Below are positions 15,708 through 64,000 of a stretch of 64,000 bases of DNA, one piece after another. The notes beneath the pieces were generated by a model. That model saw only the letters and a program-made list of their open reading frames with translations, was not told the DNA's origin and did not search any database. A program made the translations under genes and the position numbers. Origin of the DNA: Diphasiastrum complanatum (taxonomy: Eukaryota > Streptophyta > Lycopodiopsida > Lycopodiales > Lycopodiaceae); assembly GCA_029204225.1 (NCBI GenBank), contig CM055098.1, positions 23,005,367-23,069,366 of the forward strand. The letters are read 5' to 3'. How positions within the stretch are numbered: the stretch's first letter is position 1; each line of letters starts with the position of its first letter.

Positions 15708-17710
15708 ATGGTGCATCACATTTTATACGAGGATGTGCCATTCACAATGCATAATCATGAGGGCGACATGGATGACATGATGGATGCATTCTTCACAAAC
15801 CCACTCAAACCCACATTGACAAGGGAAGAAGAGATGATGCGTGGATTGGCATCCACTCCTTTGTACGAGGGTGCACAAATGTCAAAATTACGAGCTTGTT
15901 TATTACTTTTGAACTTGCAAACCAAGTACGGATGGTCGAATGCGAGTGTCACAGACTTGTTTAGGTGAGCTTGCCTTTTGGTGTACTATAGCTAAACTCA
16001 AATCTCGTTTTGTATTTCATGTTTTGTGAGAAACTATAACTAACTATAGGAATATCTTGTCGTAGTTTGCTCAGAAAAATGTTGCCTCCAAATAACACCA
16101 TGGCGGCGTCTCAACAAGAAGCCAAGAAAATGCTATCAGCGGTTGGCATAAATTACAAGAGTATTCATGCATGTCCCAATGATTGCATTTTATATCGAAA
16201 TGAGTTTGAGGAGACAAGCACGTGTCCACGCTGTGGGGAACTCCACTACAGGCAAGATTTACAAGGAGACACCATACCCGCCAAAGTGGTAAGGCATTTT
16301 TCCATCATACCTAGGATACGCCATATGTTTAAATGCAAATCCATTCGGATTGCGCTCCACATCATGGTCCACTTGGCCGGTTGTCCTTGTAACTTACAAC
16401 ATTCCCCCTTGGCTTTAAAGTATCAAGAAGGGGCATCTAATGCTTGCCCTTATTATCCCAGGAAAATACAAGGCCAAAAATATGGACGTATATATGGTTC
16501 CCTTGATAGATGAGCTAAAGATTCTACTCTGCAAGCATGTCACTCACAACATCTACAAAAGGTGATTTATGAGGGCCACACTCGATACCTTCCACCATGA
16601 TCACCCTATGCATGATGGGCTTATTGGTCAATGTCTGAAGGTACAATACATATTGGGCCAATTAATGTCATTTGAATTTTTTACAATTACTCTCTCTAGA
16701 CTATTCTAAGAATAGTCTCAATTAAATGTGTGCTTGTTTGTTAATATTATAGGCAAGTGATTGGTTTCAAATCTAGAGATCCAATCAAGATCTAGGGTGA
16801 CTCATTGTTGATAAACCATATTTTGGACCCGATGCACATATTCAAGAATGTAGGGAACACAATTTGGGCACACTTGACCAGTGCCAAAGATAAAAAAGAC
16901 ACACAAGATGACTTAAAAGAAGTGGAAAAGATGGCCAATTTACAAACAATGGGAAATTCAATTGTCCTCCCAAAGGCTCCATGCATGTTCTCGAGGAGAG
17001 AAGAGACGATTGTAAAAAAGGCAATAGTCACATTTCGAACACATGCAATGCCTAAAGGGTGCCTTCACAAGGGACAACAAGCTAAGTGGACTAAAGTCTC
17101 ATGATTGGCATAAATTTCTACAAGTTGGCATGTTTTTTGATGTTGCCTCCATCTCAATATTGAACATTACATTTTATAGCATGCCTTGTTTCATGACCTC
17201 ATTGCACAAATATGTATCTCAATGACCAAATTTTTTTTGCGCATGCAGTTTGTGCTTCCCTTGGTGCTGAAAGAATTTCTGATGGAGGGGTTAAGGAGTG
17301 CAATCTACAATGAGGTACGATCAATGCGAATTCCAATCACAATATTTTTTCTTGAGATGATTTAAGATGATGATCTAACTAATGCATGTATTATTATTAT
17401 TTACTTTTCTTATGAAGATACATTTCATCCAAGGAGATACCGCTAGCATCCATTGAGGCGACAAGACAAAGCTCCATCGAGGCAAAGTATTTGATTGAGA
17501 AGCACTTTTCCACATCCATTCTCACCATTCAAATGCATCTCATTGTGCATTTGGTAGATGAGGTGGCCATTACATGTACATCATCTACTTTCGTCAATTG
17601 TCTACTCTTAGTCCATCCTAGAATATTGATATTGTGGTTACAATGTTCTCATATTAATTTTGATCCACATTTTGTCTTTTTTTCATCAGTCACTCTATTA
17701 CCTCGGTGAA
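15708..17710 (+). pseudogene. CACTA (En/Spm) TNP2-type transposase fossil
   Basis: The transposase of a CACTA DNA transposon in recognisable order. The region has PLYEGAQMSKLRACLLLLNLQ (about 15850-15925), then LLRKMLPPNNTM and the diagnostic IHACPNDCILYRNEFEE (16150-16212), a CPRCGELHY cysteine motif, VYMVPLIDELK in a shifted frame near 16500, LDPMHIFKNV (about 16820-16860), SHDWHKFLQ (about 17100) and a last IEKHFSTSILTIQMHLIVHL block (17490-17550). An intron looks preserved: donor after 15964 (TTTAG|GTGAGC) and acceptor before 16066, which join the first two blocks in frame. Later parts have frameshifts and stops, so it is inactive. I did not find the CACTA termini. The ordered motifs make the family call secure. 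Confidence 0.8.
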
Positions 17711-20400: not shown

Positions 20401-21000
20401 TCATCAGAAAACAAGATCTAGTTTAGCAGCTTGATAGGAAACAAGTAGAGACAATCAAAACATTGATCAAATAGTATAATCCAACTCCACACGTGTGGAA
20501 ATAAGGCTGTCATACGGCCTGTAGACAGTGTTTACAAAGTGCCAAAGCTGGGTTTCATTGGAAATCAAGAGTAATCACCATACAATGAGAGGAAACTCGA
20601 GTTTCTCCTTGAGGCTCCAAAAAGTTTCTATCTTCTCACTGTGGAGAATGGGAATACATAGTAAAACACACATCCTTTGCAAAGTTAGGTGAAAATCCAG
20701 CATGTAATAAGGAAGTAGACTCCACTTTCTTGCCCTAATGTGAAAACCCTAGCCTAGATCCAAGAGTCATGCTTGGCAGGTGCATGGTAGGTACAAATCT
20801 CATCATAAATCATGGTCTAGATCCTACAAAATAGGAATCACTACCAAATAGACACAACCACTCCTCTTGACTCGTGGTAACCTACTTTAGGTGTGTATGT
20901 ACAAGTGGCACTTTGGCCATTCAAGTAACCAACAAACAATATTGACAAAATGTACAGTATTCTACATGACTAGATTTGCCAATGTAGGCAATTTTTCACA
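20400..21000 (-). mobile_element. Probable 3' LTR of the Copia element (one end defined)
   Basis: On the minus strand the pol tail is followed by a purine-rich GAGGAGGAG tract (plus strand 21001-21010) and then TGTGAAAAATTGCC, the pattern of a polypurine tract followed by an LTR start. The LTR would therefore run from 21000 towards lower coordinates. Its other end, and the 400-600 bp length, are guesses. Confidence 0.35.
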
Positions 21001-24000
21001 CTCCTCCTCAAATCCAGCCTTGGAGATCACAATGCTTTTATCAATAACTCCAATTGAAGATCTAAGCTTGACAAATGAATCTTTAGGTAAAGGTTTAGTA
21101 AACAAATCAGCCAAGCAACTTGATGATGGCACGTGTTGGAGCTTGATCTCTTTAGCTTGCACTTTTTCCCTCACGAAATGATGAGCAATTTCAATGTGTT
21201 TGCTCCTTGCATGGAATGTAGGATTAGTTTCAAGTGATTGGGCTGATTGGTTGTCACAATAGATGATAGGGATCTCCTCCTCCATGACATGAAGCTCCAC
21301 CAATAGCCTTTTGAGCCACAAGACCTCCTTGCATGTTGATGTCAAGGCCTTGTATTCGGATTCTGTGGAAGATAGGGAGATGGTATCTTGCTTTTTGGAA
21401 AGCCATGATACTACTCCATCACATAGAAAGGTGGCAAAGGCACTTGTTGATCTTCTATCCACTTTGTCACCTGCAAAATCCGAGTCACTATAGGCTCTTA
21501 AGCCAAGATTAGTTCCTCTATACAAAATACCAAAATTCTTAGTGAATGAAATGTATCTAAGAACTCTTTTGGCCATCTTCCAATGTGAAACTAGAGGACT
21601 TTGCATGAATTGGCTTGACTCTTCAACACTATAACTAAGATCAGGTCTAGTTATAGTTAAATAAATCAAGGAGCCTATAAGCCTTCTATATAAAGTGATG
21701 TCCTCAAAGGATGCTTCATCACAACTAATAGATGCTTTTACATGTTGCTCCATTGGTGTCTCAATGCCTTTACAATTCTTCATTCCAAATCTATCTAGGA
21801 TGGATGTAGCATATTTAGATTGACAAATGAAGCTAAAATCACATCCTCTAATAACCTCTATTCCAAGAATGAAGCTCAATAGGCCAAGATCTACCATCTT
21901 AAACTCTTTTGCTAAAGCAATTTTTACATCTCTAATTCCATCTAGATCATTACCACTCAAGATAATGTCATCTACATACAAAACAAGAATAATGATCATG
22001 CCATCATGAAAACTTATATACAATGATGGATCATAGGCACTCATTACAAAATTGATGGAAATGAGAAAAGAGTTTAGCCTAGAGTACCATGTTCTAGGTG
22101 CTTCTTGAGCTCATAAAGGCTCTTATTCAAAAAACACACCTTTCCTTCATGTTTTGCCTTGATGAAGCCCTCGGGTTGCCTCATGTAGATCTCTTCCTCC
22201 AAATAACCATTGAGGAATGCATTTGTGAAGTCAAGTTGGAATAGCTCCCAATTAAAGGTTGTAGCAAGACTAATGATCAACCTGATAGTAACAAGCTTAG
22301 CCACAGGAGCAAATGTCTCATCATAATCAATGCCTTTGGTTTGTAAAAAACCTTTGGCAACAAGCCTAGCTTTATGCTTGCTTATTGATCCATCTTGATT
22401 ATACTTCAATCTAAACACCCACTTGCAATCAAGAGGTTTCTTCCCTTGAGGAAGATCCACAAGATCCCAAGTATGATTCTCAATAAGAGCATCATACTCT
22501 ACTTGCATAGCATCCATCCAACTTTTAGATTTACAAGCATCTTCATAGCATGTTGGCTCATCTAACATTGAAGTAAGAAAGGTGTAAGATGTGAAAGATG
22601 ATGAGCCTTCCCTTTGATCACCTTGACCATCATAGGTGAGCCTCAATGGCTCGGATCTTGCCCTTGTAGATCTTCTTGGAGTTCTTGGAGTTCTTGCATC
22701 TTGAGGTGGATCCTCAAGTTCTTCTTCACTTGGAAGCTCCTCCTCCATCCGAGCATGATCCTTGGCATCAAGATGATTAGTAGCATTATCATCCAAATCA
22801 CAAGCATGTCCTTCATAAAAAATAACATCCCTACTCACTATCACCTTGCTAGTGATGGGATTGAAGACTCTATAACCTTTGCTATTCTCACCATATCCCA
22901 CAAAGATGCCTTTGATGGATGTTGCATCATCCTTCCTTCTCTTATCCAAGGATTGGTGTACATAGCAAGTGGATCCAAAAACTTTGAGATCCTTGAGATT
23001 GGGCTTCTCTCCAGATACAGCTTCAAATGGTGTGATTCCTCCAATGGCTTAGTTTGGCAATCTATTGCACAAATAGTTAGCACAAGTTATTGCTTCACCC
23101 CAAAATGGTTTGGATAGAGAAGCATCTAGCCTTAAGGCCTTAGCACACTCACAAAGAGATCTATTTCTTCTCTCACTCACTCCATTTTGTTGAGGGGTGT
23201 ATGGACATGACAACTCCCTCTTTATGCCATTAGAACTACAAAAGTCAATCAACTTATTGGAAATATATTCACCTCCATAATCACTCCTTAATACCTTAAT
23301 CTTGGTACTAAGTTGATTTTCTACCAAAGTCTTGAACTTTACAAAAGAATCAAACACCATTGATTTGCTAGACAAGAGGTACATTCAACAAAATCTAGAA
23401 TAGTCATCAATGAAGATTATATAGTACTTGGCACCACCATTAGACTCATGTGAAAAACTATGAACATCCGAATGGATGAGTTCAAGAGGAGAGTTTGACC
23501 TTGATGTAGATCTTGAGAAGGGTAGTTTGTGAGCCTTTGAGAGGCTGCATGCTTCACATCTCTTCCCACACTTTGACAAATGCTTGGGGAGTCCAACTGC
23601 AAGCTCCTTTGTAACAATAGATTCCATGGCTTTGTAGTTGGGGTGGCCCAACCTTTTGTGCCATAGTTCCACCTTTGATAGCTCCACCTTTGCCAAGTTA
23701 ACACTCTCCACTTCAATATTAGCATCAAGCTTAAACAATCTACCTTGCTTAAAGCATTTGGCTATACATTCATCATTTCTAAGGATGGAACAAACTCCAT
23801 GCTTAAATTGTACATCTAGGCCATTATCCATTAACTGCCAACACTAAGCAAATTCTTGGTTAACTTAGGAACATAAAGAACATTATCAAGATTCATCCTT
23901 TTGGATGATCCCACATACAAGGGAATTGTTCCTATTCCACTTACCTTACATTCTTGACTACTTGTAGTATAGATTGATCTATGTAAGTCATTGTAAGAAA

Positions 24001-29800: not shown

Positions 29801-31608
29801 TTGCAGCAATTCATCACTCCTTACAGTCCTCAATTGAATGGCTTAGCTGAGAGGAAGAACCGTACTCTGGTCGAATCTGCCAAATGTATGCTATCGCATG
29901 CATCGTTGCCCAAGAGATTCTAGGCTGAAGCTGTCTCCACTGCAACTTACGTCCAGAACAGATGTTTGACCAAGGCCCTCTCAGATAAGACACCCCACGA
30001 GGTGTGGACAGGCTCTAAGCCTTCTTTGAAGAACCTAAGAGTGTTTGGGTGCATTGCCTACGCGCAGATCCCAAAGGACACAAGGAAGAAATTGGACTTC
30101 CAAGGTCTCAAGACCATCGTGATCGGATATACTTCGTCTGATAACACTTACAAGCTGTACAATCCTGATACCCAGCAAATCTTGTATAGCCGGGATACAG
30201 TCTTTATCGAGGATCAGTTCGTCGACCTCAAAGGCAAGGATATTGCTCAAGAAAAACCTTCATCACCTGCCGTTGACACGACAATCCAAGATTCTGGCTC
30301 AAGCGTATGTATTGTCGACCCACTTCGAGACAACGAATCAGACGAAGATGTTGCTGCTACCCAACAACAAGTCCCCAGAGCGGTTCATCAGTCAAATCCT
30401 CCCGGAAGATCAAGTCGAGTGCTCACACAACTCACAAGGTATACTCCTGAGTCTGCCTATCTCTTAATGCAGGAACCGACGACAGTCGAAGAGGCACTTA
30501 GCCAACCAGACTCTGATCTCTGGAGAGAAGCCATGGACAGAGAGTATTCCTCTCTGATCAAGAATCAGACATGGTCATTAGTCGAAACTCCTATTGGCTA
30601 CAATATCATTGATTGCAAATGGATTTTTAAGATCAAATATAATGCCAACGGAGCAATTGATCGAAGGAAGGCTAGACTGGTAGCACGAGGATTTTCCCAA
30701 ATCCCGAATGTCGACTACAGTGAGACTTTTAGTCTAGTCGTCAAACATTCATCGATTCGAATGCGTCTTATGCTGCAGCTGCCGATCTCGAAGTACAGAA
30801 ACTTGATGTACAAATAGCCTATCTGAATGGAGTTATACAACAAGATATCTACATGATCCAGTCCAAAGGATACATTCTGGAAGGCATGAAGAATCATGTC
30901 TGTAAACTCCACAAAGCACTGTACAGCTTGAAACAGTCTGCCAGGGCTTGGTTTCAAAGGATCAACACATTCCTCATTGAACAAGGATTCAAACCAAGCA
31001 TTGTTGATTGCAATGTTTATTCGAAGTCAGTGCAGCAATCCTTCATTATCATCACTTTGTACGTGGATGATATGTTGCTTTTTAGCAACGATACCAATAT
31101 GGTTAAGGATTCAAAATAGATGCTATTCTCAGAATTCGACATGACTGATCTGGGCGAAGCTCACTTCTATTTGGGAATTCAAATCCACAGAGGCAGAGCA
31201 AATCGACTGATTTACATCACTCAACAAAAGTATCTTCATAATGTTCTTAACATATAAAACTTCATGAATTGTAAATTGGCTCACTCACCAATGGATCCAG
31301 GCCTGCATTTGTCAAAGGACCAATGTTCCCAGACCAAGCAGGAAGAGGAGCAAATGAGAGAGTATCTGTATCGATCGATACTAGGATCTCTCATGTACGC
31401 AATGGTCTATACAAGACCAGATATCTCTTTTGTTGTTAGCTCACTCAGCCAATACATGGCCAATCCTGGCATTACCCATTGGAAGGCTCTTATTCGAGTC
31501 ATGATGTATATTCGAGCTACCATAGACTAGTGCATTTGCTATGGAGATGTTAGCAACGACAATCTTTATCAGCTCAGTGGTTATTCTGATGCAAGCTGGG
31601 GAGGAAAA
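29801..31608 (+). pseudogene. Copia pol, 3' half in inverted orientation
   Basis: Plus-strand pol starting inside integrase (LQQFITPYSPQLNG, then LAERKNRTLVES) and running through integrase C-terminus, reverse transcriptase (LVARGFSQ, LYVDDMLLFSND, LGSLMYA) to the start of RNase H (LSGYSDASWGG), where it ends at the junction near 31605. Lesions include TAG at 29921, a frame break near 30755-30815, and stops near 31117, 31257 and 31528. Its first residues follow directly on the last integrase residues of the minus-strand fragment to its right, so both are halves of one element. Confidence 0.85.
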
Positions 31609-33370
31609 TGCCTTGGCTTTGGAAGTACTCCTTAAACTTGACAGAGATATATTCTCCACCGTTGTCTGACCTTAGGGCCTTGATCGTCCTTCCAGTCTCC
31701 TTTTCTGCACGCTCCTTGAAGATTCTGAAGCAGGTGAAGGCCTCTGATTTTTTCTTTATGAAGTACACCATAGTCCTTCTGGAGAATTCATCAATAAAGG
31801 TTATAAAATACTTGGCGTTCTTCAGCGAAGGAGTTTTCATCGGGCCACAAATATCTGAATGTACAACATCTAGCAATCCTCTAGCAACATGCTGATGGCT
31901 TGACTTAAATGGTCTCCTAGTCTGTTTACCAACTAGACAGTCTTGACAGACAGGTAACTCGACCTTTTCGAGGATAGTTGAGATCAAGAACAATAGATTG
32001 TCTAGACATTTGTTGTACAACAACATGATTTAAATGACCAAGTTTATAATGCCAAAAACCTTTATTTGAATGAAATGAAGTACTGAGAGCCTGACTAGAG
32101 GCAGAAAAGCAATGACTCAACTTATACAAGTATCCATGTCTCTTTCCGAGTGCTAGGATCTTGCCTGTCCTATCAACTACTTTACATTGATCACATTCGA
32201 AATCTAATCTATGTCCTAGATCTGTGATTCTGCTTACAGAGAGCAGATTCGTAGATAACTTTGGTACATATAGGACTTTAGAGAGTAGCTTAGATTGATC
32301 ATTTGCAAAGCATAATCTTACAGTACCTTCACCTTTAATAGCTTGTGTGCTATTGTCGCCAAGGTGAATGAATTTTTGAGTATTGTAATGTGTATAGGAC
32401 TCAAACATCCAATGAGGCTAGTCATGTGCTGAGTGGCTCCGAAATCCAGGAACCAAGAACTGTCGCCAGATGCTCCTTGATGAATGGTCATGAAGGCATC
32501 ATGATCCACTTTTTGAATAGGCTGTGGAGCTTCTGCAGCTACATTTTCCACTTGGTTCGACTGCCCATTGCTGTTGTTCTTTGCTTGAAGTATTCGATAG
32601 TCTTGTATTTCGTGGTTGTTTCGTTTGCAGTATCTACAGAACAGCTTCTTCTTTGTCTGTGGATTTGACTGCTACTTGTGCTGAGCTGGTTTCTGATCTG
32701 GCTTTAATTGCTTCGGGCCTTTCTTCTTCTTCTTCTTCTGCTTTGTCGTGCTCTTGTTGGTGTACAAGGTGTGAGAATCAGCTGAGGAACTTGAGGCTTC
32801 GTTCCTTCGCGTGTCTTCCTGCAACAACATAGTAATGACTCTCGAAAGAGTCAATTCTGGATGAGTCGTGATGATCATCACCCAGCTATTGTAAGAACTT
32901 GGCAAGCTTGTAAGCAGTTGCATCACTGCATCTTGATTGTCTATGACAGATCCGACAGTGGCCATTTGTCTTAGCAGGTTTTTGAACTGATTAATGTGAT
33001 TCTGCAGAGAATCACCATTCGTCATCTTGAGGGAGTAGAATTTCTTCCTGAGATGTAGCTTGGAAGCTATATCTCGCACTTCGTATATTGTGCTCAAGAT
33101 GTCCCAGACTTCTTTCGATGTTTGAGCCTCGGATACATGGCCGATCTGGGTATCCGTGATGTTGAGGATGATTAGCGCAAAGGCTTTTCCATCCTTCAGC
33201 TTCCATCTAGCGATTGCCACATCGTCCGCTTCGGGTTTCCCTTCTGCACCTGTAACAACGTCGTACAATTCTTTTGCCATTAGCACAATTTTCATCTTAA
33301 ATTTCCACAGATGGTAATTGGTTCCATCAAGCTTGTCCATGATAGGACTGGCTTTCTCTTGGGAATCCAT
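31609..33370 (-). pseudogene. Copia 5' half: gag, protease and integrase start
   Basis: Minus strand from 33370: an intact 232-residue UBN2-type gag (starts MDSQEKASPIMDKLDG) ending with a TAG at 32672-32674. The CCHC knuckle that follows has its last Cys replaced by Tyr. The protease active site DSG reads DFG (LDFGATQHMT). Next are the gag-pre-integrase with CQDCLVGKQTRRPF, and the integrase core with HSDICGPM, FIDEFSR and SDNGGEYISVKF, breaking off after FQSQGI near 31610. Damage includes frame changes near 32320-32410 and 31930-32030. It is inactive: the protease and knuckle lack key residues. The tRNA primer site is present to the right at 33516-33527. Confidence 0.88.
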
Positions 33371-33515
33371 GTGGAAGAGTTAGTCTAAGTGATAGGAGAA
33401 GCTATCAATGACTTAAGTATGAAAATCTGATACTAAAAAATACAGAACAAGAAAACAATATCTCTATCGGCTGGTAGAGTCTTGTACTGTGGAAGCTTAT
33501 CAAGCTATGAAAATA

Positions 33516-46828: not shown

Positions 46829-48167
46829 GTAATATATATAAATATATATAAAATAGACTATTTTAAGAGAGAGAACGTGCGTTTTGCACTAAAAAATGTC
46901 ACGCTTTTGCCGACAAAAAATGTCACGCTCTGCCCACAAAAATGTCACGCTTTTGCAAAGGAAAAAACTAAATACAGCCTCCAAAAATATATAAACACTT
47001 TTTGTGGGTAAGTGCCCATTGTTTGTCATCGACGGGCACAAACAACTAGTGTATATATATATATTTTGCATCCATGTTCACACATATTCTCGTTAGACGT
47101 TTACTTGTGGTAAGGGTCATTGATAAGTTACCTTAATTCAGTGCTCGGAAAACCTTTTTAGGGTTCCCCTCCAAAAACCTATATTTCAGAAACTTTTCCA
47201 GTTTTTCACAAGGATGACCCTCAATACATGTCGGTTATACATTATTTTATGATCTAAAAAGACCTGCAAGTTTGCGAGCATGCCGGTTTTTGGCAAAAGT
47301 TGCCGAATCCATTGTTGGACTTTGCCGGCTTTCCCGAATTACACTGCCTTAAGTCACTTGGGGCCGTCCCCATTGAGCATTAATGCTTCTTGGTTTCAAA
47401 GGAAAGGCTCTAACGGTTAACCTTGGACCAAAGAAACTTGATGTCAAGCTAACCAACTCAGCCAACCCCGTTGGGCCCACTGAGAATAAATGAGACAAGA
47501 AAACTCTCATTTTCATTGAGTGATGAACCCATCATGCCAAGTGCTCAAATTATTATCTTTGGAAGCACTTCCATCAGTAAAATGTTGACGTAAACTTTAG
47601 AACCAAATTTTATTTTCCAATGATGGGTTGGCGCCACATGTACATAGGCACATGCATATTTATAGGTCTTCCACATGCACATTCCATCAAAAAGAAAAGC
47701 GAGGAATAAGATATTGAAAAAAAAATAGTGAAAAAAATTTGCACACAATGTGAAAGCAAAAAAAAATTCAAAAAAAACGTAAAGAACATAGAACTTCTCA
47801 CATGGCACTATGGAAGGGAAGGCCCTAGTCAGTTGAGCCTTTGGGCTCCCGCCCTCTTGCATCTGCCTCCCAAGGCAAAAGGCTCTCATACAGGGGGGGG
47901 GGGGGGGGGGGGGGGGGGGGGGCTTTCCCCCATGTGATCATGATCAATACTTTGGGGATTAGAAATCCCAATTGACATGAATTGCATGGAAACCTTGTAT
48001 GTTGTCTAGATATTGTGTGCAGATATTGTGCGTGAAATTGTGGAGGTGCTATGTACCCATGGAGGACAAGGAAAACTTCAATGTGGTGTGTTGAATTGTA
48101 GGGCTATATGTCCCCAAAGCTAAGTGGGGACGAAGATACCCTCAACCCTAAATTGTGATCAAAAGGT
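45044..48167. other. MLO upstream region and spacer
   Basis: No further gene recognised. Includes a (CT)n(TA)n microsatellite at about 46795-46828, three close copies of ATGTCACGCT between 46895 and 46952, and a 30-G run at 47893. A 127-codon frame at 46191 has no known motif. Confidence 0.5.
47893..47922 (+). repeat. Homopolymer G30
   Basis: Thirty consecutive G. Homopolymer length in an assembly is unreliable. Confidence 0.9.
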
Positions 48168-48329
48168 CATTTTGACTTCTAGCCCGTCTTTGAGATGAGT
48201 CTCAATGCCATGAAGGTAGGTCCCTAGGAAGGCCATTCCCCTCACAATCATTTTGACTTCTAGCCCGTCTTTGAGATGAGTCTCAATGCCATGAAGGTAG
48301 GTCCCTAGGAAGGCCATTCCCCTCACAAT
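48168..48329. repeat. Perfect 81-bp tandem duplication
   Basis: 48168-48248 and 48249-48329 appear identical. The unit is 27 codons long, so a frame stays open on the minus strand across both copies. Identity implies a recent event. Confidence 0.9.
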
Positions 48330-49269: not shown

Positions 49270-52200
49270 TCTAAATCCGTCATCTCAAATTGCTCTTAAG
49301 TTGGCTTTGATAGAATGAGTGAGATTTTCATCATTGCCCATGATAATAATATCATCAACATAAATTACAATCAAGGCAATGCTATCTTCGTTCATAAGAA
49401 CATAAAGATTTAAGTCTGAATTTGTTCTTACAAACTCATGAGAAAGTCGTACCACATGTGCGTGGTGCTTGCTTAAGGCCATAAAGTGCTTTGCGTAGCT
49501 TGCACACCTTATGTTCTTGTCCTTTTGCCATAAAGCCCTGTGGTTGGACCATGTAAACTTCTTCCTCTAAGTCACCATTCAAAAATCCAGACTTCACATC
49601 CATTTGATGGATCTTCCATCCAAAATGAGATGCTAAGGTGATGATAAGACGTAGCATAGTCCACTTAGCCATTGGAGCAAATGTCTCTTTGTAGTCAATT
49701 CCCTTGTTCTGCTCATAGCCCTTCACTACTAAACATGCCTTATGTTTTGCCATTGTGTCATCCGCATGAAACTTTGTGTGTTCTAAACACCCATTTGTTG
49801 TCAATGAGTTTCTTTCCCAGTGGTAGATCAACTAACTCTCATGTATCATGTCTGTGGATGGACTTCATCTCCTCTTCCATTGCCCTTTGTCACTCTTTGT
49901 TATCCTTTGCCTCATCAAAGGTTGATGGCCCTCGACACTTCAAAATGTCACTCATTAGGGCATAGTTCACATGATAATGATCGGGAGGCTTCATTTCCCA
50001 CGTTGATCTTCTTACTTCTTCTTGTGTGCTAGATCCTGGTTGGTTTAGCTTTGCGTCCTTTGTGATCTTTTCATACCATTTTGGTATCTTAGACTCAGAT
50101 GATACACTTCGTGGAAAGTATGTGTCCCAAGGAGTGTCCAAGTAATGTCTCTTACTTCCAACCGGTTTCTCCTTTGTTGCTCTTATCGGCAAGTACCTTC
50201 TCCTAGGCTCTTGGATAGGTGGTGTCTTCTTATACTCACTCTCCCGACCTTCGCCTTCATGTGCATCATCCTGTGGAGCGTCTTCTTCATCTTCTTCTTC
50301 CAAGATTGTGGGAAGTCTTTTGATGCTTTCATCACTTGCATGGTCTTCATCTTCATACCTATGCATCTCATCAAAGATCACATCTTTGCTTATGTGAATC
50401 TTGTTCATTACATGATCAAAACTCTTGTATGCCTTCATCCTCTCATCATAACTGACAAAGATACACTTGATTGCTTTGGCATCAAGTTTTTTTCGCTCCT
50501 CCTTTGGCACACGTACATAGACCTACATCCAATGACATGAAACTTGTCAATTTTTGTCTTTATTCCTATAAATGCTTCTTTAGGAGTCACATTTGGAACC
50601 GCAACTGTCACGGCTCCCATTTTGCAAGAACGTTGCTGCACTACATGCTTCTGACCAAAGTGAATCGATTTAGCCCATTTACTTCATCATGGAGTGTGCA
50701 CTCTCCATAATATTCATGTTTTTCCTTTCAGCTACACCATTACTATGCGACATGTGTGACTGTGTGAATTGTCTTTTGATGCCGTGTTCCTTGCCAAAGT
50801 CCTGAAAATCATTAGATTTGTATTCACCCCGTCTATCTAATCTTAGCACTTTGATGCGTGCATCTAGTTGGTTCTCTACTAGAGCCTTAAACTTCTTGAA
50901 GCGAGCAAAAGCATCAGATTTTTTCTTCAAGAAAATAATCCATGTCCTTCTAGAGTAATGATCTATGAAAGTCATGAAATAATAGGCTTTTCCCATTGAC
51001 ATGGTCTTCATTGGGCCGCATAGGTCGCTATGAATAAGTTCCAATGGTTTCTTAGCTCTTGTAGCGCCACCTTTCTTGAATGTCTCTCTGTGATGCTTTC
51101 CCATAACACATCCTTCACATATGGTGTGATGATCATCCTGTAGTGCTGGTAATCCTATTACCATTTTCAACTTCACCATCAATCTCAAGCTCCCATAGTT
51201 CAACTGACCAAGTCTTATGAGCCACAACTCAGATTGTGATGTTGTTGAGATAGCCAAACCATATTCTCCCAATTTTGCAGCATCCAATTTATAAAGACCA
51301 CAGTTACTATTCAACCTTAAGATGTTGATTTGCCATCACACCAACAGAAAGCAAACTCTTTTGAGTCCAGGAACATAAAGTACATTAGGGATATTCTTGC
51401 TTTTACCATCAGGAAACTGCACAGGTACATTGCCAGCACCTTGTATTTGGCATTCCTCCCCGTTGGCTTGTGTGACCTTGTCCCCATCATGGATTGGCAA
51501 GAATTTCTCAAACCAATTACGTTTCCTGGTCATATGCCTTGTGGCGTCTGAATCTATGAACCATCTGGCACCATCATCAACCTGGAATGCCAATGTTGAT
51601 GAGAAGATACTTGTCTCGTCATCTTCCCCATCATCTTCAGCAATGTTGCTTTGTTGCTTGACTTTTTTCGCATTTATGTCCGCTTTTTTCATGTAACACT
51701 CACATGCCCAATGACCCGGTTTGTGGCAATAGTAACATTTGTCTTTCTTCTTCTTTTTCACCTTCGATGACGACTCTCCCTCATCATCATCATCCTTGGA
51801 TTTCTTAGGAATCCTCTTCCACCCTTTCTGCTTGACTTTAGCAAGCAATGCTTGATCATCCTGTGGGGCTTGCCTTGACTTCACCATCTCGCGACACTGC
51901 TCTTTTTGCAACATGATTCTGTGAAAGTCTTCAAAAGTAGGCAATTTCTCCCTCAAAGCAATGCCATTCACAAACATTTGTAGACCTTCCAAAACACTGC
52001 TCATAGTGGTATGTACCAATTCAACCTCCCTGATTGGTTCTCCAATTGCCACAAGTTGATCTCTCAACTCCTTTATCCTGGTGAAGAAAAATCCCACTGA
52101 TTCGCCTTCTTCCATCCTGGTTGTGTTCAATTTCAACTTCAAGAACATGGCTCAGCTGGATTGCAAGTTTGAAATTGCATTCTAAGAGCTTCCCAAGCTC

Positions 52201-53630: not shown

Positions 53631-54003
53631 GAATAAAGCCTTGAGTTGACTTTATTTAGCGAAACATTCATCTGTTGGTCCAACAAAGTGTTCCAATCAT
53701 TCATCTCATTAAGTGCCACACTACTCAACTTAATATGACAAAATTGGAGATAGGTCGACATGCAAACGTTCCTTCTAGACTTGCATTATCTTCGGCCATT
53801 ATTAATCACCTAAAACAAGAAATCGCTTTAATTAAGTTGACAAATCTTGAAATCTTTAACTGAAATTGAACATTGTTTTGATCTCATAAATTGAATGATT
53901 ACATCTTAGTAAGGCCATTTAGTCCAAAAGCCAATGTTGTTTTAAGCAATAACCAACAAATTTGAAAAAATCGAATTGACACATTTTCAATACTATAAAA
54001 GAT

Positions 54004-54217
54004 CAAGGAAAATTGTTTTCAGAAATAATAAAAAACAAAGTAAGCTCCAGTATATAATCTGACATAACAAATCTACTAGTACTTGATAAGAGACAAAAAC
54101 TTATGCATTCGGCTTTGTCTTCTTTGATTACTGTCTCTCCATCAATATTATGTCCACCTTTTGATGTCAATATTGTTGGTGAATAGACAGTTGGCTGTGG
54201 AAAACCAAGTTGACTTT
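54004..54217 (-). pseudogene. Inverted partial copy of the plus-strand gene at 61732
   Basis: The reverse complement is about 93-95% identical to 62601-62806, covering the end of the first part of that gene, its donor site and intron, and the start of the next exon. Differences: a CAG codon where the right-hand copy has TAG, a 7-bp insertion near 54132, and ATAAGT where the right-hand copy has the donor GTAAGT. Similarity stops on both sides, so it is an isolated fragment. Confidence 0.8.
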
Positions 54218-55745
54218 TGATCTAAATGCGATCTAATCTTGTGTAGATTGATAGGTTGATCTAATCTAACATCCAATCACACTTGTGGATCTAATTCAGA
54301 TATATTCTTGGTCCATTTTGTTGTACTTTGAAATTCTAGTGTCCATTAACTTCTGGAGTTCAATTTGACACCATGAGAGCTGAAGATAGTTCTTATATAT
54401 GATTAACAAAATTCTCAATAGGTGTCCTAGTTGGGGTATCATATTTTTGTTTTGAATTTGACAAAAGATACGAGTTTGGCAGTTAATGATCATGAAGATG
54501 TTTTGATTAGCTTTAGTGTTTTACGTTTGTGGTTATTTTTAACTATAATATGTAGATTTTGTTTGAATTTTTATTCACTTTGTCACAATAGCGGTAAGCT
54601 ATTGTGACAATTTGCTAAAAGTTAAAATGAATTTTCTTTTTTCATTTTGAATTCTTCTAAAATGCATTTTTTTTTTCCAACGATTTGAATGCCCTACATA
54701 AGGCAAAGCTTCTCTTGATGGATAGATCGATTACCTTGTTAATGTGTTGTTTTTGTTGTTTACAATGTGATTTCCTAGTTGTATTTTATTGAAGTTTAGA
54801 ATTTAGAATGTTCAATCTTTTAATTTTATCTCATTCATATTCATTTCATAGGTATTTGTATAGTATTGCATACCTATCCAATCACTTTTATTTGGATATT
54901 AGCTTTAGTTTATGTTAATTGTGTGGCTTACAAAGATTTTGTTAGATATTTTATGGGAGTCACTATGAGCATAATTCCACTCTTAGTAATATTTGGAGAA
55001 TTTCTTGATTTTGGAACAAATTAATTTTTCTCTCTATCCTCTCTAGTACATGCTTGTATGCTCGAACTTAAATTTCAAGCAAAGGAGCATGTGCTCGAAC
55101 TGAAGTTAGAGCATAGGTCTTTGTCAAGTTTGTGCGATTGAACTTAATTTCAGCAAAGGACGTTATAAAAGAAAAGAATGGGATTTCGGATTGTCCCAAA
55201 ATTACTAAAGTAGTGAGAAAATTCCCTGAGGCATTATGAGCTGATAGTGTGTGTTTACTCAAACCTTACATGAATCAATGTTTTACATTGAGTTGGGGGA
55301 CCACCAAACCTAGGGCATAATGATGGGACATAAATTTTGATTTTGTGTATATGTGAGCCCTCAAAATAAAAGTATATCATGGATGGAATCTCAAAACTAC
55401 TTGACCCTCAAGCTGGATATAGGCCTCATGGATGGAACCACTAGCAAAATTTTGAAAATCATGTTTTAAATATAAAATGTTTTAGATTTTCATAACACAC
55501 ATTATCTATTTCGATAACGGATACTTGTCGTCCCATGGTAATGACTTGTCCTTACGGTCAATTTGCGTTAACAAGAGGACATGACATTATACTCCAAACA
55601 CTAATTATTAGTGTTTAAAGGGAATTATGCTCATATTGCTCCCAAAATCATGCACATAAAATTTAGCATCACAGAAGTGGACTAAACAAAATCTACCAAG
55701 TATTTTGGGCATTCAAGAATCAGACTCAGAATATTCATTGATTTC
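54218..55745. other. Spacer, no gene recognised
   Basis: A+T-rich sequence without a supported frame between the inverted fragment and the RING gene promoter. Confidence 0.5.
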
Positions 55746-55755: not shown

Positions 55756-55946
55756 TATTGCCATCTTCCCGAATCCGGATCGTAAAAACAAAAAGCAAAA
55801 GCTACGAGATTTATGGCTTTTGGTTTCGAATAAATTGTGTGCTCGCGAGAGAAAGAGCGAGGCTGCGAGAGTGAGGTAGCATCATGAGATGGAGAGAGCG
55901 AATGCATGCCTTCGTACAGTAATTGCGAGCGCAAGTGCAAGCGCCG

Positions 55947-56708
55947 ATGTTTACATCTAATTGGAGACGCTGGTGCACAATGTCTTGGGCAGTCAGCGAG
56001 TATACGTTTAATCTTATAATTTTTGAAATCACACTAATAGTCTTCTTTGGCAGTGAAGGAGAACGTCCTCACAAACATGAAAGAGCTCTTGTTCTGTGGA
56101 ATTTGTTCGAGCGAATGATGCTCATAGCTTATGGATCTCGTGGGTCTTTAAGCAGAAGTGATATGCAGTACCAAGAGGCTCGCTCATGGCATTCACTCCA
56201 AGATTTTGTGCTGAAACGGTTTGTTGCAGCGCTGTCAGGCTTCCCGCGGGCGTTGATGACACTCATAAGGTTGAAGTTTTCCATGGATCAGGATGCTCCA
56301 ATATTATATATACTTTGCTACGTGCTCTTGCTTTTAGACTTGCGATTTATACTGCTCAGATTCATAGCCGTGTACGCGATAGAAAGCCCTGAGGATAGAG
56401 ATTCGGAAGACATTGTTGTTTCACCAGAAACTGAACTGCGGATAATAGTAATACCAGAAAACAAAATAGTCGGTGTAGTTTCGGACTCGGATGAGTGGGG
56501 AAGCGAAGTGCAGTACGGATCAAATGAAGAGGAAGCCAGATGCTGCATTTGTTTATGTGCTTTTCAAAGTGGGGAAACGGTTTTCCAGCTTTCGTGCAAT
56601 CATCAGTATCATAAAGTTTGCATCGAGACGTGGAGAAGGATTGATCCCAGATGTCCGCTTTGTAAGCAGGTTCTTAGTAATCAAGCAGTTGAGGCCTTGT
56701 TGCATTAG
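55947..56708 (+). CDS. Membrane-anchored RING-H2 E3 ubiquitin ligase
   Basis: Single-exon gene of 253 residues from the first ATG (MFTSNWRRW). The C-terminal RING-H2 reads CCIC....., SCNHQYHKVC and RCPLC, i.e. C-x2-C, C-x-H-x2-H-x2-C, then C-x2-C: all eight zinc ligands of the C3H2C3 type are present. Two hydrophobic stretches precede it: NLIIFEITLIVFF (residues ~20-35) and YILCYVLLLLDLRFILLRFIAV (residues ~130-155). An acidic linker lies between. It should transfer ubiquitin from an E2 to a membrane or nearby substrate, with the RING on the cytosolic side. The frame is intact, with a TATA box upstream. The subfamily and substrate are unknown. It may be an ordinary host gene or part of the multigene cluster to its right. 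Confidence 0.85.
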   Translation: MFTSNWRRWCTMSWAVSEYTFNLIIFEITLIVFFGSEGERPHKHERALVLWNLFERMMLIAYGSRGSLSRSDMQYQEARSWHSLQDFVLKRFVAALSGFPRALMTLIRLKFSMDQDAPILYILCYVLLLLDLRFILLRFIAVYAIESPEDRDSEDIVVSPETELRIIVIPENKIVGVVSDSDEWGSEVQYGSNEEEARCCICLCAFQSGETVFQLSCNHQYHKVCIETWRRIDPRCPLCKQVLSNQAVEALLH

Positions 56709-58317: not shown

Positions 58318-60209
58318 CTAAAAGGCTGTTAAGACAGAAGCAGCTTCCTTTTGAGGGCCCTCTATTGTAGGTGCAACGCTTATACCGTACTGGGCAAAGG
58401 TTCTAATCAACTCTTGTCGAAATCTATATACATCATCAGGAGTATACGGCTCAAGAGTGAACTATCATCACAAAACACGAGAATCAGCAAATTACAAACA
58501 ATGATAGTAATAAAATATGAATCAGAATGAAATGAACTACAAATGAATAGAATATTACCTTTTCAATATCTACATCCGTTTGTAAATTATACCATTCAAA
58601 AAATAGCTTTGTATTGTAAAGGACGAACCACGCACAACTAAAAGCATCATTTTGCTGTACACATTGCATATGTAGAACGAAAATTAGTAATATTATGATA
58701 GAAATTTTATTTATGCTATGACGATACATTTGAATCAAAAAAGGAATACATGCATATCAGAGATAAATTGAATATACCTTGAGAGATTTAATGGTTATAT
58801 CTCCAATTGAAGTTGCCGTTGTCGGTATTTCCTGAACGACATCATGAAGTAGAAAATCAAATTCTCTATGTGTATTTGCAGCTGAGTTTAATTTTACACG
58901 TAGAAATTTTGATACTCCCTCCTTATTTATCTTTACAAAAAGAATGTTTAGGCTCCAATGTTGACTGCAACAACCAAGATACAAATATCATTAAATTCAT
59001 ATCTATGAAAAAATTTCATTCTTATTAAAGCAATGAGACATGCAACAATCCAAATTAAAGCAACAAAAACAAAAGAACAATCCTTACTTATTTTCATATG
59101 GAATCAAATAAAATTTTGCCATAGGACTGCACTTGATAAAATAGACAGCCTTCTCAAAATTGGCTTCTTTCGCCTTTACCGCTCCCATGAAAAATGGACT
59201 AACTACAAAAACTGTACCATGGGAATCGAAACTAATACTATTTTGCAAAAAAGAAACTCCAGCCTCTACTATTGCATCTGAAATTTTTGAGGTATTATCT
59301 TTTAGCTTGGCACAAAATTCGGGACCTAATCTAAAGCTTCTACATATATCTGGAAGAAAAAAATCCAAAAAGTTGCCGAGAAGATCAATTTTGTTAGCTA
59401 GGTAGGCCTCGTATTGATTTTAATGGTCAGAATAAAAAAAAACTTGGGCTGGATCGTATGGAGTTCTCACAAAAACATTATGTACAGGAACAGAAACAGA
59501 AGTGGAAAGAATATTTACAAATTTCTCTGTTATTCTGTCTAGCTCCTCTTGGGTAATCAACACTTTTGGTGATAAAACCTGTTGAGGAGCTGGACAAATA
59601 ACAGGAGGAGGACTGGGTGAAGATTCTCAATCTGAATCAGATTCTCCAGCATCTGACTCAGAGCTTAGGAAGACACAGGGTCTCTTGGCCGGGATACGTC
59701 TAGGAGGAAGGGAAGCAGCTGGCCTTCGAGATCCAGCCTTCTTGAGGACAACCTGCTTTCTCTTCCTCCTAGAGGTAGTAGGCACGTTGGTTCTATCTAG
59801 GGGCAGGTCTCTAGAGGTGCTGGCATTATCAACATGCAGACCAGAATATCTGTCCCGAAGCCTTTTGAATATGACGAAATCCTTTGGCATGATGGTGACA
59901 TGCTTACCATGCACTGCCAAAAGACAAGTATCATCAAAGTGACTGGGACAGAAAATCTTCTGCAGCACCCTGCAAGGCCTGCATGGCTGTCACGGCAAAA
60001 TGAACATCCAGCCCAAGTGACAGAGTGACATTCCATACAAATCGGCCGAAAGGAGCCCTAGGGATCAACAATTCAGTTGATCTCTTGAGTTTTCTAATCT
60101 CCCTCACCTGCTTCCTGCCACACCTATGGCCAATACCAGGGGGAACACGGGAATGGCATGGCTGTACAGTGGTGATGGCATGGGCGGTGGATTTGGTCCT
60201 GGCCATCAT
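58318..60209 (-). pseudogene. Histone H3-like domain joined to a Ulp1-like protease domain (spliced, damaged)
   Basis: Minus-strand exons: 60209-59088, 58964-58778, 58654-58559 and 58461-58318, with GT..AG borders and matching phases; about 515 residues. Residues ~2-125 follow histone H3: MARTKSTA start, VREIRKLKRSTELLI, ALQGAAEDFL, then HGKHVTIMPKDF. Loop spacing is that of ordinary H3, not the longer loop of CENH3. Next come a basic segment (SRRKRKQVVLKK), an acidic-Ser patch and a proline linker. The C-terminal ~200 residues resemble a C48 peptidase: NQHWSLNILFV (His), LNSAA where DSL is usual, and QNDAFSCAW (Gln and Cys). C48 enzymes cleave SUMO. Lesions: one extra base near 59940 inside the H3 fold, TGA near 59629 and TAA at 59422-59420. 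It may be a pseudogene. The H3 call is strong; Ulp1 moderate. Confidence 0.7.
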
Positions 60210-60516
60210 TCTCAGAAGAAGAAAATTAACAAAAAGAAGTTTGAATAAAACAAAAGTGGATCAAAAAAAAAAATTTGCGATGAAAGGGCACTTGAGATCG
60301 ATACCAGCACTGAATATCGGTTTCGAACGCAAGATCTATAGAGATTATTTACAGAAAAGAGATGCGCGCTCGAAAGCGATATTGCACAATAGGCGGTATT
60401 GGGCTCGAGCGCACTGTGAGAGGGCGGAAGCTTGAAAGATGAAAGAGCGCACTTGAGAGCGATATTGGGAGCTAAAAGTGAAAATTTTGCCAAAAAAAAT
60501 GAAAATTCCGAGGACT

Positions 60517-60524
60517 TATATATA
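60517..60524 (-). promoter_or_regulatory. TATA box for the minus-strand H3-protease gene
   Basis: TATATATA 308 bp upstream of the minus-strand ATG at 60209. The sequence downstream of it on the minus strand (CTCCCAATATCGCTCTCAAGTGCGC-like) resembles the 5' region after the plus-strand TATA boxes at 60786 and 61411. Confidence 0.5.
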
Positions 60525-60534
60525 GAAATTTTTG

Positions 60535-61375
60535 CACGTGTGAAAAGATGGCTGAGACACATGTCGTCAAATGATTAGACCACGTGGAGTGTTCATACTG
60601 ACAATGATGAGCCAATTATGAGGCCACGTGGGCTGAGACACATGTGCGAATCCCTAATTGACGCGTGTCATTCTTGCACGTGATAGATGTCAGATCAATC
60701 ATACTAGGTACGACGCATTTAGTTTGGCTAATCACAAGTCGACACGTGTTCCTTCACCAGTCCTCCACAATTGCAATTTTTTTTTTATAAATATGTCTTT
60801 TTGGGCTCAGATTTTCATGCAAATTCACGATTGCTTTGTCGGATATCGATTTCAAGCGCGCCGCTTGCTCTCATTACATCTCGTTGGCTGTTATGCGCCT
60901 AGATCCGATACTACATCGGCCGGTATCGCATTCGAGCGTGTCTAGCAAACCTTTTTTTTTTGCTCATTGTCCTTGCGCTCGGATCCGATACTCCAACTTC
61001 AAATATTTCTCTTGAGTGCATGTTGATTTGACGTGCTTGTTGGACCTAGGGTTTGTGACTCAGAGCGATATTTGGAACTTTAGTTCTCTTATTTTTTTTT
61101 AAAATGTCTAATTTTGAATTCAGTTTGCTTTCTTTTTTTAATGAATTTTTGCAAATTTTCACACTTGTGAAAAGACGGCTGAGACACGTGTCGTCAAATG
61201 ACTAGACCACGTGTAAATTCCGTACGGATAATGATGACTTAATTAAGGAGACACGTGGGCTGAGACACATGCGCGAATCCCTTATCGACGCATGTCATTC
61301 TCGCACGTGACAGATGTCAGATCAATCATTCAAGGTACGACGCATTTATTTTGGCCAATCATATGTCGACACGTG
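60535..61375. promoter_or_regulatory. Ten CACGTG (G-box) motifs in a divergent promoter
   Basis: CACGTG occurs at 60535, 60581, 60625, 60677 and 60743 in copy 1 and at 61185, 61208, 61252, 61304 and 61370 in copy 2. In plants this palindrome is bound by bZIP and bHLH factors, including light and abscisic-acid pathways. Such density upstream of genes pointing both ways suggests strong, shared control. The binding is inferred. Confidence 0.7.
60786..60793 (+). promoter_or_regulatory. TATA box, promoter copy 1
   Basis: TATAAATA, followed 318 bp later by the truncated gene start at 61104. The equivalent element in copy 2 is at 61411-61420. Confidence 0.5.
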
Positions 61376-61410
61376 TTCCTTCACCACTCCTCCACACTTG
61401 CAAAAATTTT

Positions 61411-61420
61411 TATATAAATA
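61411..61420 (+). promoter_or_regulatory. TATA box, promoter copy 2
   Basis: TATATAAATA 312 bp upstream of the ATG at 61732, at the same relative place as in copy 1. Confidence 0.55.
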
Positions 61421-61731
61421 GGTCTTTTTCGGCTCGTATTTTCACGCAAATTTACGATTGCTTTGCCAGATATCGATTTCAAGCACGCCACTTACTCTCA
61501 TTACGTCTCCTTGACTATTATGCGCCTGGATCCAATACTGCATCCTTCGGCATCGCATTCAAGCGCATTTCGTATCCCTTTTCTTTTCTGCTCGTTGTTC
61601 TTGCGCTCAGATCCAATACTCCAGCTTCCAATATCCCTCTCGAGAGCACATTGCCTTGACGTGCTTGTTTGACCTGGGGTTTGCGCCTGAGAGCGATATT
61701 TGGAACTTCAGTTCTATTATTTTTGTTTAAA

Positions 61732-63229
61732 ATGTCTAATTTTGAATCCAGTTTGCTTTTTTTTTTTAATGAATTTGGTATTACTGATAGGTTGGACTAT
61801 TTCAAATCCCTTTTTTCTCCTTTTCTTTTTATTCTACCTTCTATAACTGAGGGCCGTGGTGTGGAGGCATTTTCTGGGATACATCTCAGATTTAAGTCCC
61901 TGCTCAGTACTCCGTTATTCAGGTCTCAAAATAAAGACATGATTCATTATCAGGACCTGGTGGCACTCGACAAGCATATCTACAAAGCTAAGCTTGACAG
62001 AATGTTTACCAAATTATATAATGATTTCAAGTTTGTAGATGAGTGCCCAATTCATAATAAAAAATGTAGATTTGTTGATTTTCAGTCTGCTTTTGTTTTT
62101 TTCCTTTTGTTAAATATTTCTGACGATTCGGACTCTGTGCCCTCTACTTTTGAAGCAGCTTTTTCTAGTGGTACAAAGTCTGAAAAGTCAAAGATTGTAG
62201 ATATAGATACCTTTTTTTACTGACACGAGTGTTAATTTAGATGATTGTTCTGATTTTGATCATGTTCAAAATAGGGCTACTTTTATAAGCCCTAGAACAC
62301 CCACTACCCTTTCTCCTTCTGATAAATCTTTGATCACTTTGCCTACTTATATTATAGATAATAATTCCTTTTTGACAATATCGGATATATTGGATCTTTT
62401 TTACTTCACTGAAGCTGAGACTCTTTGCATTTCCAACAAAGAGCTTGATGAATTTTTGGATATAATTGATTTTGATGCTGATGATCTTCTCCCTGGTGTT
62501 GACGATGTACATAATGATAAGTTTTATTCAGGGAAAGATTGCTTGGAAATGGCTGTGGAGGAAATGCGCAACTCAAAAGGTGAGGAGTTTCTTAGAATCC
62601 AAAGTCAACTTGGTTTTCCATAGCCAACTGTCTATTCACCAACAATATTGACATCGAAAGGTGGACATAATATTGATGGAGAGACAGAGAAGACAAAGTC
62701 GAATGCGTAAGTTTTTGTCTTTTATCAAGTACTAGTAGATTTGTTATGTCAAATTATATACTGGAGCTTACTTTGTTTTTTATCATTTGAGGAAACAATT
62801 TTCCTGGATGATTTCACAATTCGTCGAGGAGGGCAGAGATATTCTGCGGGAGAATTTTCAAGAGATCATGCACTCGGGCAATATCTAAAGTCCTTCAAGA
62901 ATAATGAGATAAGTGTTGCCCATTCAAAGTTTCATCAACATGGTGAAACTATGATTATGGCAATCAAGGCACTATCTCATTTTCTTGGAGGACATAATTT
63001 TAATAAGGTGCATAAAATAATTGTTGTAAAGAAAACTATTGCAATTAAAATTTTAGGATATGGACCAGTGAATTCCATGCTCAGATCATCTCATTTTGCA
63101 GTGTATGCTGCTTACGTTGATCTGAGTAAGCATGAAAACTATGAGCTATTGGATCCATACGAAAGAAGAAAATTGTTGCATGATTCTAAGTTGCAACTTT
63201 CATTGGAAAAAATATCGGAAGCCGATTAG
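61732..63229 (+). pseudogene. Spliced gene of unknown family (damaged)
   Basis: Starts MSNFESSLLFFFNEFGI at 61732. The first part runs to a T7 run near 62212, where a one-base shift leads into a stop; the frame continues one base over (DTSVNLDDCSDFDH...) to 62623, where a TAG interrupts GFP/PTVYSP. The exon then ends at about 62707 with a GTAAGT donor. The next exon starts near 62791 (acceptor TTTGAG) and encodes EETIFLDDFTIRRGGQRYSA to SLEKISEAD, stop at 63229. The total would be about 470 residues. It is acidic in the middle (FDADDLLPGVDD), with no TM segment and no motif I recognise. It is divergent from the H3-protease gene, and convergent with the next gene, 60 bp apart. A partial inverted copy lies at 54004. 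Confidence 0.55.
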
Positions 63230-63288: not shown

Positions 63289-64000
63289 CTATAGCCTACT
63301 GGCTTGTATGAATTTGCATGCCTTTTGAAATTTTTTATAATTTGTCGATTTTGTATTATGACGAATTTGGATTCTTCTGTAAAACCATTGGAAAAGTTGC
63401 AATATATAGCTGTTTTTTGTGCTAGTCCCGCCATGTTGTGTACTTTTATGAAATGTCGCTCTTGCTTGCCAATGAGATTTTTCCATTCCTTGCAATGACC
63501 ATATGCTAAGACTTCCACTATTTCTTGCAACGAATGTCGAATGATGTCGTAATATGTGCTGCATGTCATAAAAACATAATATAAATCAGTACCAAAAGTA
63601 TCTAATTTAATTGCACATATTTGTCTATCGTAGTGTGAAATCAAAATCTTACCATATAATGTGTTATATGATCAACACCCCATGCACTCTTAACTGCATC
63701 CACAAATTCATTGGTTGTTTTCTGTATCATTTGAACATCAGTATTTGAAAATTTATCTTTTCTCAAGTATTTCACCATGTTGTCTAACTTTTTTTCAAAC
63801 TTCTACTTTGTGTATACGAGTAGAACCTTTTTTTTTGAAATCTTGAGTTGCTGCAATAATTTCTTTCCAAATTGTGTATTGAACCTTAGATTGTTTGACA
63901 GAATAATTTGATAAAAATCTTCGAGCTTTAGATCCTCCAATGCTCGGCTTGCATGGAATATCTCCTGTTTTACCTGATAACTTGTCATCTTTTTTCATTT
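63289..64000 (-). CDS. Partial spliced gene with a QG-E-K motif, transposon-like
   Basis: Minus-strand gene entering from the right edge. The upstream part (63998-63795: ARRFLSNYSVKQSKVQYTIW and on) shifts frame near 63800 into KKLDNMVKYLRKDKFSN and VDHITHYM, ending at 63653 (ATG|GTAAGA). The last exon, 63558-63289, joins in phase 0: HILRHHSTFVARNSG, SIWSLQGMEKSHWQA, HKSTQHGG, QLFQWFYRRIQIRH, stop. The pattern H(I/L)L..H....., S.QG.E, T.HGG, and a final aromatic-basic W..RR motif recalls uncharacterised, repetitive, probably transposon-encoded proteins of many eukaryotes; this is from memory and not checked. It is convergent with the gene ending at 63229. Start outside the window. Confidence 0.45.

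Follow-up and report, generated by a model that had tools for sequence, protein, structure and literature searches.

We analysed a 64,000-nucleotide stretch of the Diphasiastrum complanatum genome (hereafter the window; contig CM055098.1) that contains a decayed gene on the minus strand (60206-58318). The gene encodes, in order, an H3-like histone fold, a charged linker and a Ulp1-like domain, distributed over four phased exons (intron phases 2, 0 and 0). An earlier reading of the letters without database searches (hereafter the sequence-only reading) had described the locus as a histone H3 domain fused to a peptidase C48-like domain in four in-phase exons, with a frameshift and two stops.

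Exon 1 (60206-59088, minus strand) starts with MARTKSTAHA at 60206 and ends in IPYEN ahead of its donor site. The first part (59843-60206) encodes the H3-like fold with its MARTK start, in which Lys4 is kept and Lys9 is lost; the STELLI, AAED and VTIMPKD motifs singled out by the sequence-only reading are all present. The one frameshift lies in this part, near 59950. The ORF list places the basic/acidic linker and the start of the Ulp1-like part at 59420-59842, together with both stops (TGA at 59627-59629, TAA at 59420-59422); the equivalent stretch is open in another copy, L024. The remainder of exon 1 (59088-59419) encodes the N-terminal half of the Ulp1-like domain, and is matched at 5.4e-51 by the profile of an alignment (A2) that includes the window copy itself. 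The exon model and profile comparison place HWSL, with the catalytic His, and LNS, the triad position with Asn for Asp, in exon 2 (58778-58964), and QNDAFSC, with the oxyanion Gln and catalytic Cys, in exon 3 (58559-58654). Exon 4 (58318-58461) encodes the C-terminal part. The exons, phases and motifs of the window gene were found again in independent copies. The exon structure of the sequence-only reading stands, with one correction at the exon 3 acceptor, which in the window lies at 58654 or 9 bases earlier: comparison with the copies that we call type B (see below) indicates that it was ancestrally 9 bases further 5', and the AG at that site has been lost in the window copy.

An annotated Diphasiastrum complanatum protein, P0002, has a relative of exon 4 at its C-terminus. 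The idea that exon 4 is a captured host fragment was ruled out because exon 4 holds the same position in type B copies, as a transposon-encoded exon would. P0002 itself resembles the model of a host gene into which a transposon exon has been incorporated, a possible case of exonisation.

Upstream of the H3-Ulp1 gene lies a region shared by two divergent genes (60207-61731), delimited by repeat search and motif matches. It holds most of a ~627-bp tandem duplication (60526-61776) that extends into the neighbouring gene. Motifs resembling GAGAGCGATATT with at most 2 mismatches occur 10 times in the window (4.45 expected; none of 100 shuffles reached 10), and 6 of the 10 lie between the divergent genes at 60313-61700, beside the duplication. 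These motifs are possible binding sites of a protein of the element. The divergent partner gene (61732-63229, plus strand) is broken and was recognised from its frames and from syntenic relatives in all three types of copy described below. Beyond it, the 3' part of a transposase-like gene (63376-64000, minus strand) matches a type B piece at 77% identity and a type C piece at 45% (tblastn). When 5 kb beyond the window were included in the search, this match stopped 61 bases past the window end, and no more of the transposase-like gene than its 3' part was found there.

Copies of the fusion gene in the genome

In a search of the 1.74 Gb genome with the Pfam Histone profile, 150 of 6325 candidates were scored, and these yielded 153 matches. 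Among the matches listed, 13 are canonical H3 at 163.7-165 bits, and the remainder, on many contigs, score 82.8-109.5 bits. By eye, 27 divergent rows among those listed have no stop and a frame of at least 280 aa. We retrieved 20 of these 27 copies, a sample biased towards intact copies because it was chosen for open frames.

The copies fall into three types. Type A comprises L024 and the window, type B comprises seven copies (L015, L016, L017, L019, L020, L022 and L027) and type C comprises the other 12. The frame running from H3 to Ulp1 is carried by 8 of the 20, namely L024 and the seven type B copies. L024 is stop-free from MART through H3 and the linker to the start of the Ulp1 part, where homology ends. 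In type B, exon 1 is open from H3 into the Ulp1-like part in all seven copies, with a stop in the tail of L017 and L027. L016 and L022 retain the complete spliced frame of four exons, 470 aa, and are the intact paralogues that the sequence-only reading had suggested be sought. Because intact copies are thus present at other loci of this genome, the fusion is real.

In the 12 type C copies Ulp1 was not detected by profile search, and H3 is the end of a proline-rich protein starting MARTKQTARD. Two type C pairs (L011/L013 and L018/L026) are each 99% alike across 10 kb and may each be one locus assembled twice. Two further arrangements were seen: the type B copy L017 has two H3 domains in tandem (L017:3694-5045), and L035:121-813 (G000:C13), which belongs to none of types A, B and C, is a fourth kind of divergent H3 with a MARTKQTARE tail and a frame change ahead of the H3 fold.

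The H3-like part

The window H3, with its two frame pieces joined by X, matches Pfam Histone (PF00125) at E = 2.1e-17, and the H3 of L027 matches it at 4e-28. Against the PDB, the best H3 chain matches the window H3 at E = 1.3e-20, and the best 60 of 178 matches are all H3 by name. Lys9 is absent from all 23 tails read (22 loci; the tail of L034 lies outside its retrieved stretch and is excluded from the count), the position being occupied by Asp, Gly, Ala or Glu. These losses are not 23 independent events because the lineages are related. Lys4 is present at 21 of the 22 loci, the exception being L024 with Glu. Lys9 is still present in L001 and L004, which are canonical H3 genes of this genome. 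Judged by the H3 profile, the transposon H3 is thus a histone fold; judged by Lys9, its tail is not canonical.

The Ulp1-like part

The C48 layout (HW...NS...QND..SC) described by the sequence-only reading is weak in the window alone: Pfam Peptidase_C48 (PF02902) matches the exon 3 frame at E = 0.014 (15.7 bits against a cut-off of 20.7), and the joined window exons gave no C48 match in Pfam. The same layout is significant in the intact copy L016, whose Ulp1 part matches Peptidase_C48 at 2.7e-11 (44.1 bits, above the curated cut-off of 20.7) and is 37% identical to the window across the domain. Three of the four members of A2 have C48 matches at E up to 10. In a profile search of the PDB, the nearest solved relatives were yeast Ulp1 (0.0013) and SENP2 (0.0059; PDB 1euv and 1tgz). 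The fusion shares with these enzymes the IPY..HWSL, Gln and SCG regions; it differs from them in its triad and in the placement of the domain behind a histone fold.

The His, Gln and Cys of the Ulp1 site are retained in L016, L022 and the window. The triad Asp is replaced by Asn in all seven copies where the position was read, so the His-Asp-Cys triad plus Gln of peptidase C48 is incomplete. DeSUMOylating activity of the fusion is doubtful because Asn stands where C48 peptidases have the triad Asp. Individual copies carry further damage. In L015 a stop interrupts exon 2 and the Cys is replaced by Tyr, L027 has stop codons adjacent to the His and at the position of a Gln, and the frame breaks in exon 2 of L020 and in exon 3 of L019. 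L017, modelled through exon 1, has no match to exon 2.

Selection on the fusion gene

The H3 part is under purifying selection. Between type B subgroups its pN/pS is 0.15-0.24 in four pairs (Fisher 2e-8 to 2e-6), all of which are comparisons with L019 and hence not independent. Among the same subgroups constraint on Ulp1 exon 1 is weak (0.40-0.64, p 0.055-0.24), and exon 2 gives 0.34-0.61 (p 0.006-0.24). Between types A and B, where synonymous sites are near saturation, pN/pS is 0.35 for H3 and 0.25-0.61 for the Ulp1 exons (p <= 4e-5). Canonical H3 compared with transposon H3 gives 0.36-0.50.

Between the window and L024, pN/pS is 0.70 for H3 (p 0.20) and 0.82 for the linker (p 0.40). Constraint is thus not seen in this comparison, which is what decaying copies would be expected to show. 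Within type B subgroups, H3 remains at 0.34-0.48, while ratios above 1 occur in the tail and the linker and, for one subgroup, also in Ulp1 exon 1; these ratios fit decay after insertion.

The element is a multi-gene DNA transposon

Type B copies are bounded by terminal inverted repeats of ~35 bp, which enclose the genes as in a TIR DNA transposon. Both ends are present in B16 (L033 + L016; 35 bp, perfect) and B22 (L031 + L022; imperfect), and one end in further copies. B22 spans ~9.3 kb, and the type B element thus reaches up to ~9.3 kb and carries three genes besides H3-Ulp1. A transposase-like gene comes first, followed by the partner gene, which runs in the opposite sense, then by H3-Ulp1 and lastly by the fourth gene. 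Type A has the same layout as far as it is preserved, and type C has the same gene order but with the partner and H3 turned. No ends of the type A element were found, and no match to the fourth gene in the window and 5 kb beyond. Inspection by eye of the two copies with both ends revealed no target-site duplication.

The transposase-like gene is so called only for motifs that we read as DDE-like. Three of its ORFs (pieces, from L025 and L027) gave no Pfam match, including to a Mutator or hAT domain, and a profile of two such ORFs retrieved no PDB chain at E 10. Between type B subgroups the outer parts of the element are 88-99% identical, and the central ~2 kb mostly 74-88%. The diverged centre (for example in L022) runs from the start of the partner gene over the shared promoter to H3. 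Because it is less alike than the outer parts, the central cassette would appear to have been exchanged, as if by recombination, or to have diverged independently.

We conclude, with a probability of about 95%, that the locus in the window is what is left of a multi-gene DNA transposon, in a decayed and truncated copy, and that one gene of this transposon fuses H3-like and Ulp1/C48-like domains.

Discussion

Each half of this fusion has a published counterpart in transposons. The Mutator-like Vandal elements of Arabidopsis and others are likewise plant DNA transposons, and their Kaonashi (KIU) genes are accessory genes that encode a Ulp1 (C48) domain (PMC13317346, available in part). According to the same partial text, elements with a Ulp1-bearing VANC gene (KIU) induce hypomethylation of related copies in plants, and an anti-silencing role is reported for such genes. 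A second source, also available in part, describes the VANC protein of Vandal elements as stripping DNA methylation from related copies, with no mention of Ulp1 in the portion available (PMC5735166). The present element differs in several respects. No histone domain is mentioned for KIU/Vandal in the available text, in which the word 'histone' occurs 0 times, and these elements are described there as non-TIR (PMC13317346), whereas type B has terminal inverted repeats of ~35 bp; nor was a Mutator transposase domain detected in the three ORF pieces tested here. H3, for its part, has been multiplied by a DNA transposon in fungi, as an H3-like gene (H3L) carried by hAT elements in Pyrenophora tritici-repentis and Pseudocercospora fijiensis (PMC3538342 and PMC6710886, each available in part). 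In P. fijiensis and C. zeae-maydis the fungal elements have target duplications of 8 bp according to these partial texts, whereas here no duplication was seen and no hAT domain was detected in the tested ORFs; 'Ulp1' occurs 0 times in the available text of PMC3538342.

Thus, as far as the available texts go, fungal hAT elements with H3 and plant Mutator elements with Ulp1 are already on record, and we did not find a fusion of H3 and Ulp1 in the literature. That search, which placed bioRxiv preprints and most subscription papers outside its scope and drew on partial texts, returned neither a protein that fuses H3 to Ulp1 nor a plant transposon that carries H3. In the protein database, the whole window fusion as query had 5 matches, with no second H3-Ulp1 protein among them. 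The Ulp1 region matched none of 611 candidates at E 10, and none of the best 120 of 962 matches to a further profile (A1), dominated by H3, contained PF02902. Eight pattern matches in viral contigs yielded no confirmed case.

What the fusion does can be proposed from its sequence features. The protein would enter chromatin via its H3 fold and would work for the transposon, most likely against silencing. A tail with Lys4 but without Lys9 could not carry H3K9 methylation and would thus escape that mark. For the Ulp1 domain we envisage local removal of SUMO or, should the triad with Asn for Asp be inactive, SUMO binding. This anti-silencing mechanism is our best guess, and a tentative one; against it we count the Asn in the triad, the weak constraint on Ulp1 exon 1 and the lack of Ulp1 in type C. 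Because type C elements carry H3 and no Ulp1 was found there, Ulp1 would seem dispensable for the spread of the element. Taken jointly, the identification of the element and the anti-silencing mechanism seem to us reasonably probable. The sequence-only reading had considered a deSUMOylating activity placed on chromatin: the fusion is borne out, the activity is in doubt, and the gene belongs to a transposon and is not a host chromatin gene. It is a more speculative step to envisage transposon-made chromatin, in which an H3 variant with Lys4, unmethylatable at Lys9 and joined to a SUMO-protease-like domain, would let the element's nucleosomes resist host silencing.

Alternatively, the fusion could be an accessory for transposition, its H3 fold binding DNA or H4 and its Ulp1-like fold serving as a scaffold or processing a transposon protein. 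H3 accompanies the transposase-like gene and the partner gene in all three types of copy, and this suits such a role, as does the Asn in the triad, which suggests a non-standard or dead protease; on its own, however, an accessory role leaves the loss of Lys9 beside a retained Lys4 unexplained, and we regard it as possible, at well under even odds. The element might instead carry pieces of host H3 and Ulp1 passively and without function, by Pack-type transduplication. Passive capture is common in plants (PMC13317346, in the part available), and in fungi H3 has been captured by hAT elements, with inactivated copies in P. fijiensis, yet 23 of 26 Pyrenophora copies that look functional (PMC6710886, in the part available). 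The window copy, broken and with an H3 pN/pS of 0.70 (p 0.20) against L024, could be read in this way. The measured constraint on H3 nevertheless disfavours passive capture, at 0.15-0.24 among type B subgroups, 0.35 between types A and B and 0.36-0.50 between canonical and transposon H3; the H3-Ulp1 frame and splice phases have, moreover, been retained in two deep lineages. We consider this the least likely of the explanations weighed here.

The element might also have captured CenH3, the centromeric form of H3, and be directed to centromeres by it. The LLIPRAPF, AAED and KDF stretches of the H3 part resemble what we take to be CenH3 motifs, and in a tree types A and B share a branch side with two database proteins that are CenH3-like in appearance. 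That branch has a support of 88/85, however, the two database proteins are long-branched, and a CenH3 of the host was not found for comparison. CenH3 is marked by a longer loop 1 with a Trp; loop 1 has no insertion in type A and an insertion of one residue in type B, and the Trp is absent. A centromeric origin is therefore improbable.

An H3 under purifying selection, without Lys9 and joined to Ulp1, points to an ability of selfish DNA to make a histone variant for itself. If the anti-silencing mechanism is true, the product would be a self-made anti-silencing nucleosome. The fusion would make it possible to test directly how transposons counter silencing based on H3K9, and would provide a SUMO-protease fold that is naturally tethered to chromatin.

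Other features of the window

Part of the partner gene recurs in inverted orientation at 53997-54221 (minus strand; repeat search). This inverted repeat (53997-54221 / 62597-62814) was considered as the element termini and ruled out because its right arm lies inside the partner gene. An open frame at 55923-56708 (plus strand) has, by eye, a terminal RING-finger-like CxxC...CNHxxH...CPLC motif, and a perfect 81-bp tandem duplication occupies 48167-48328. A frame at 16040-16513 (plus strand) may represent a piece of a CACTA (TNP2-type) transposase, which it resembles by eye. Remains of Copia-type retrotransposons were recognised by eye at 20962-23048, 29924-33379 and 49890-52151.
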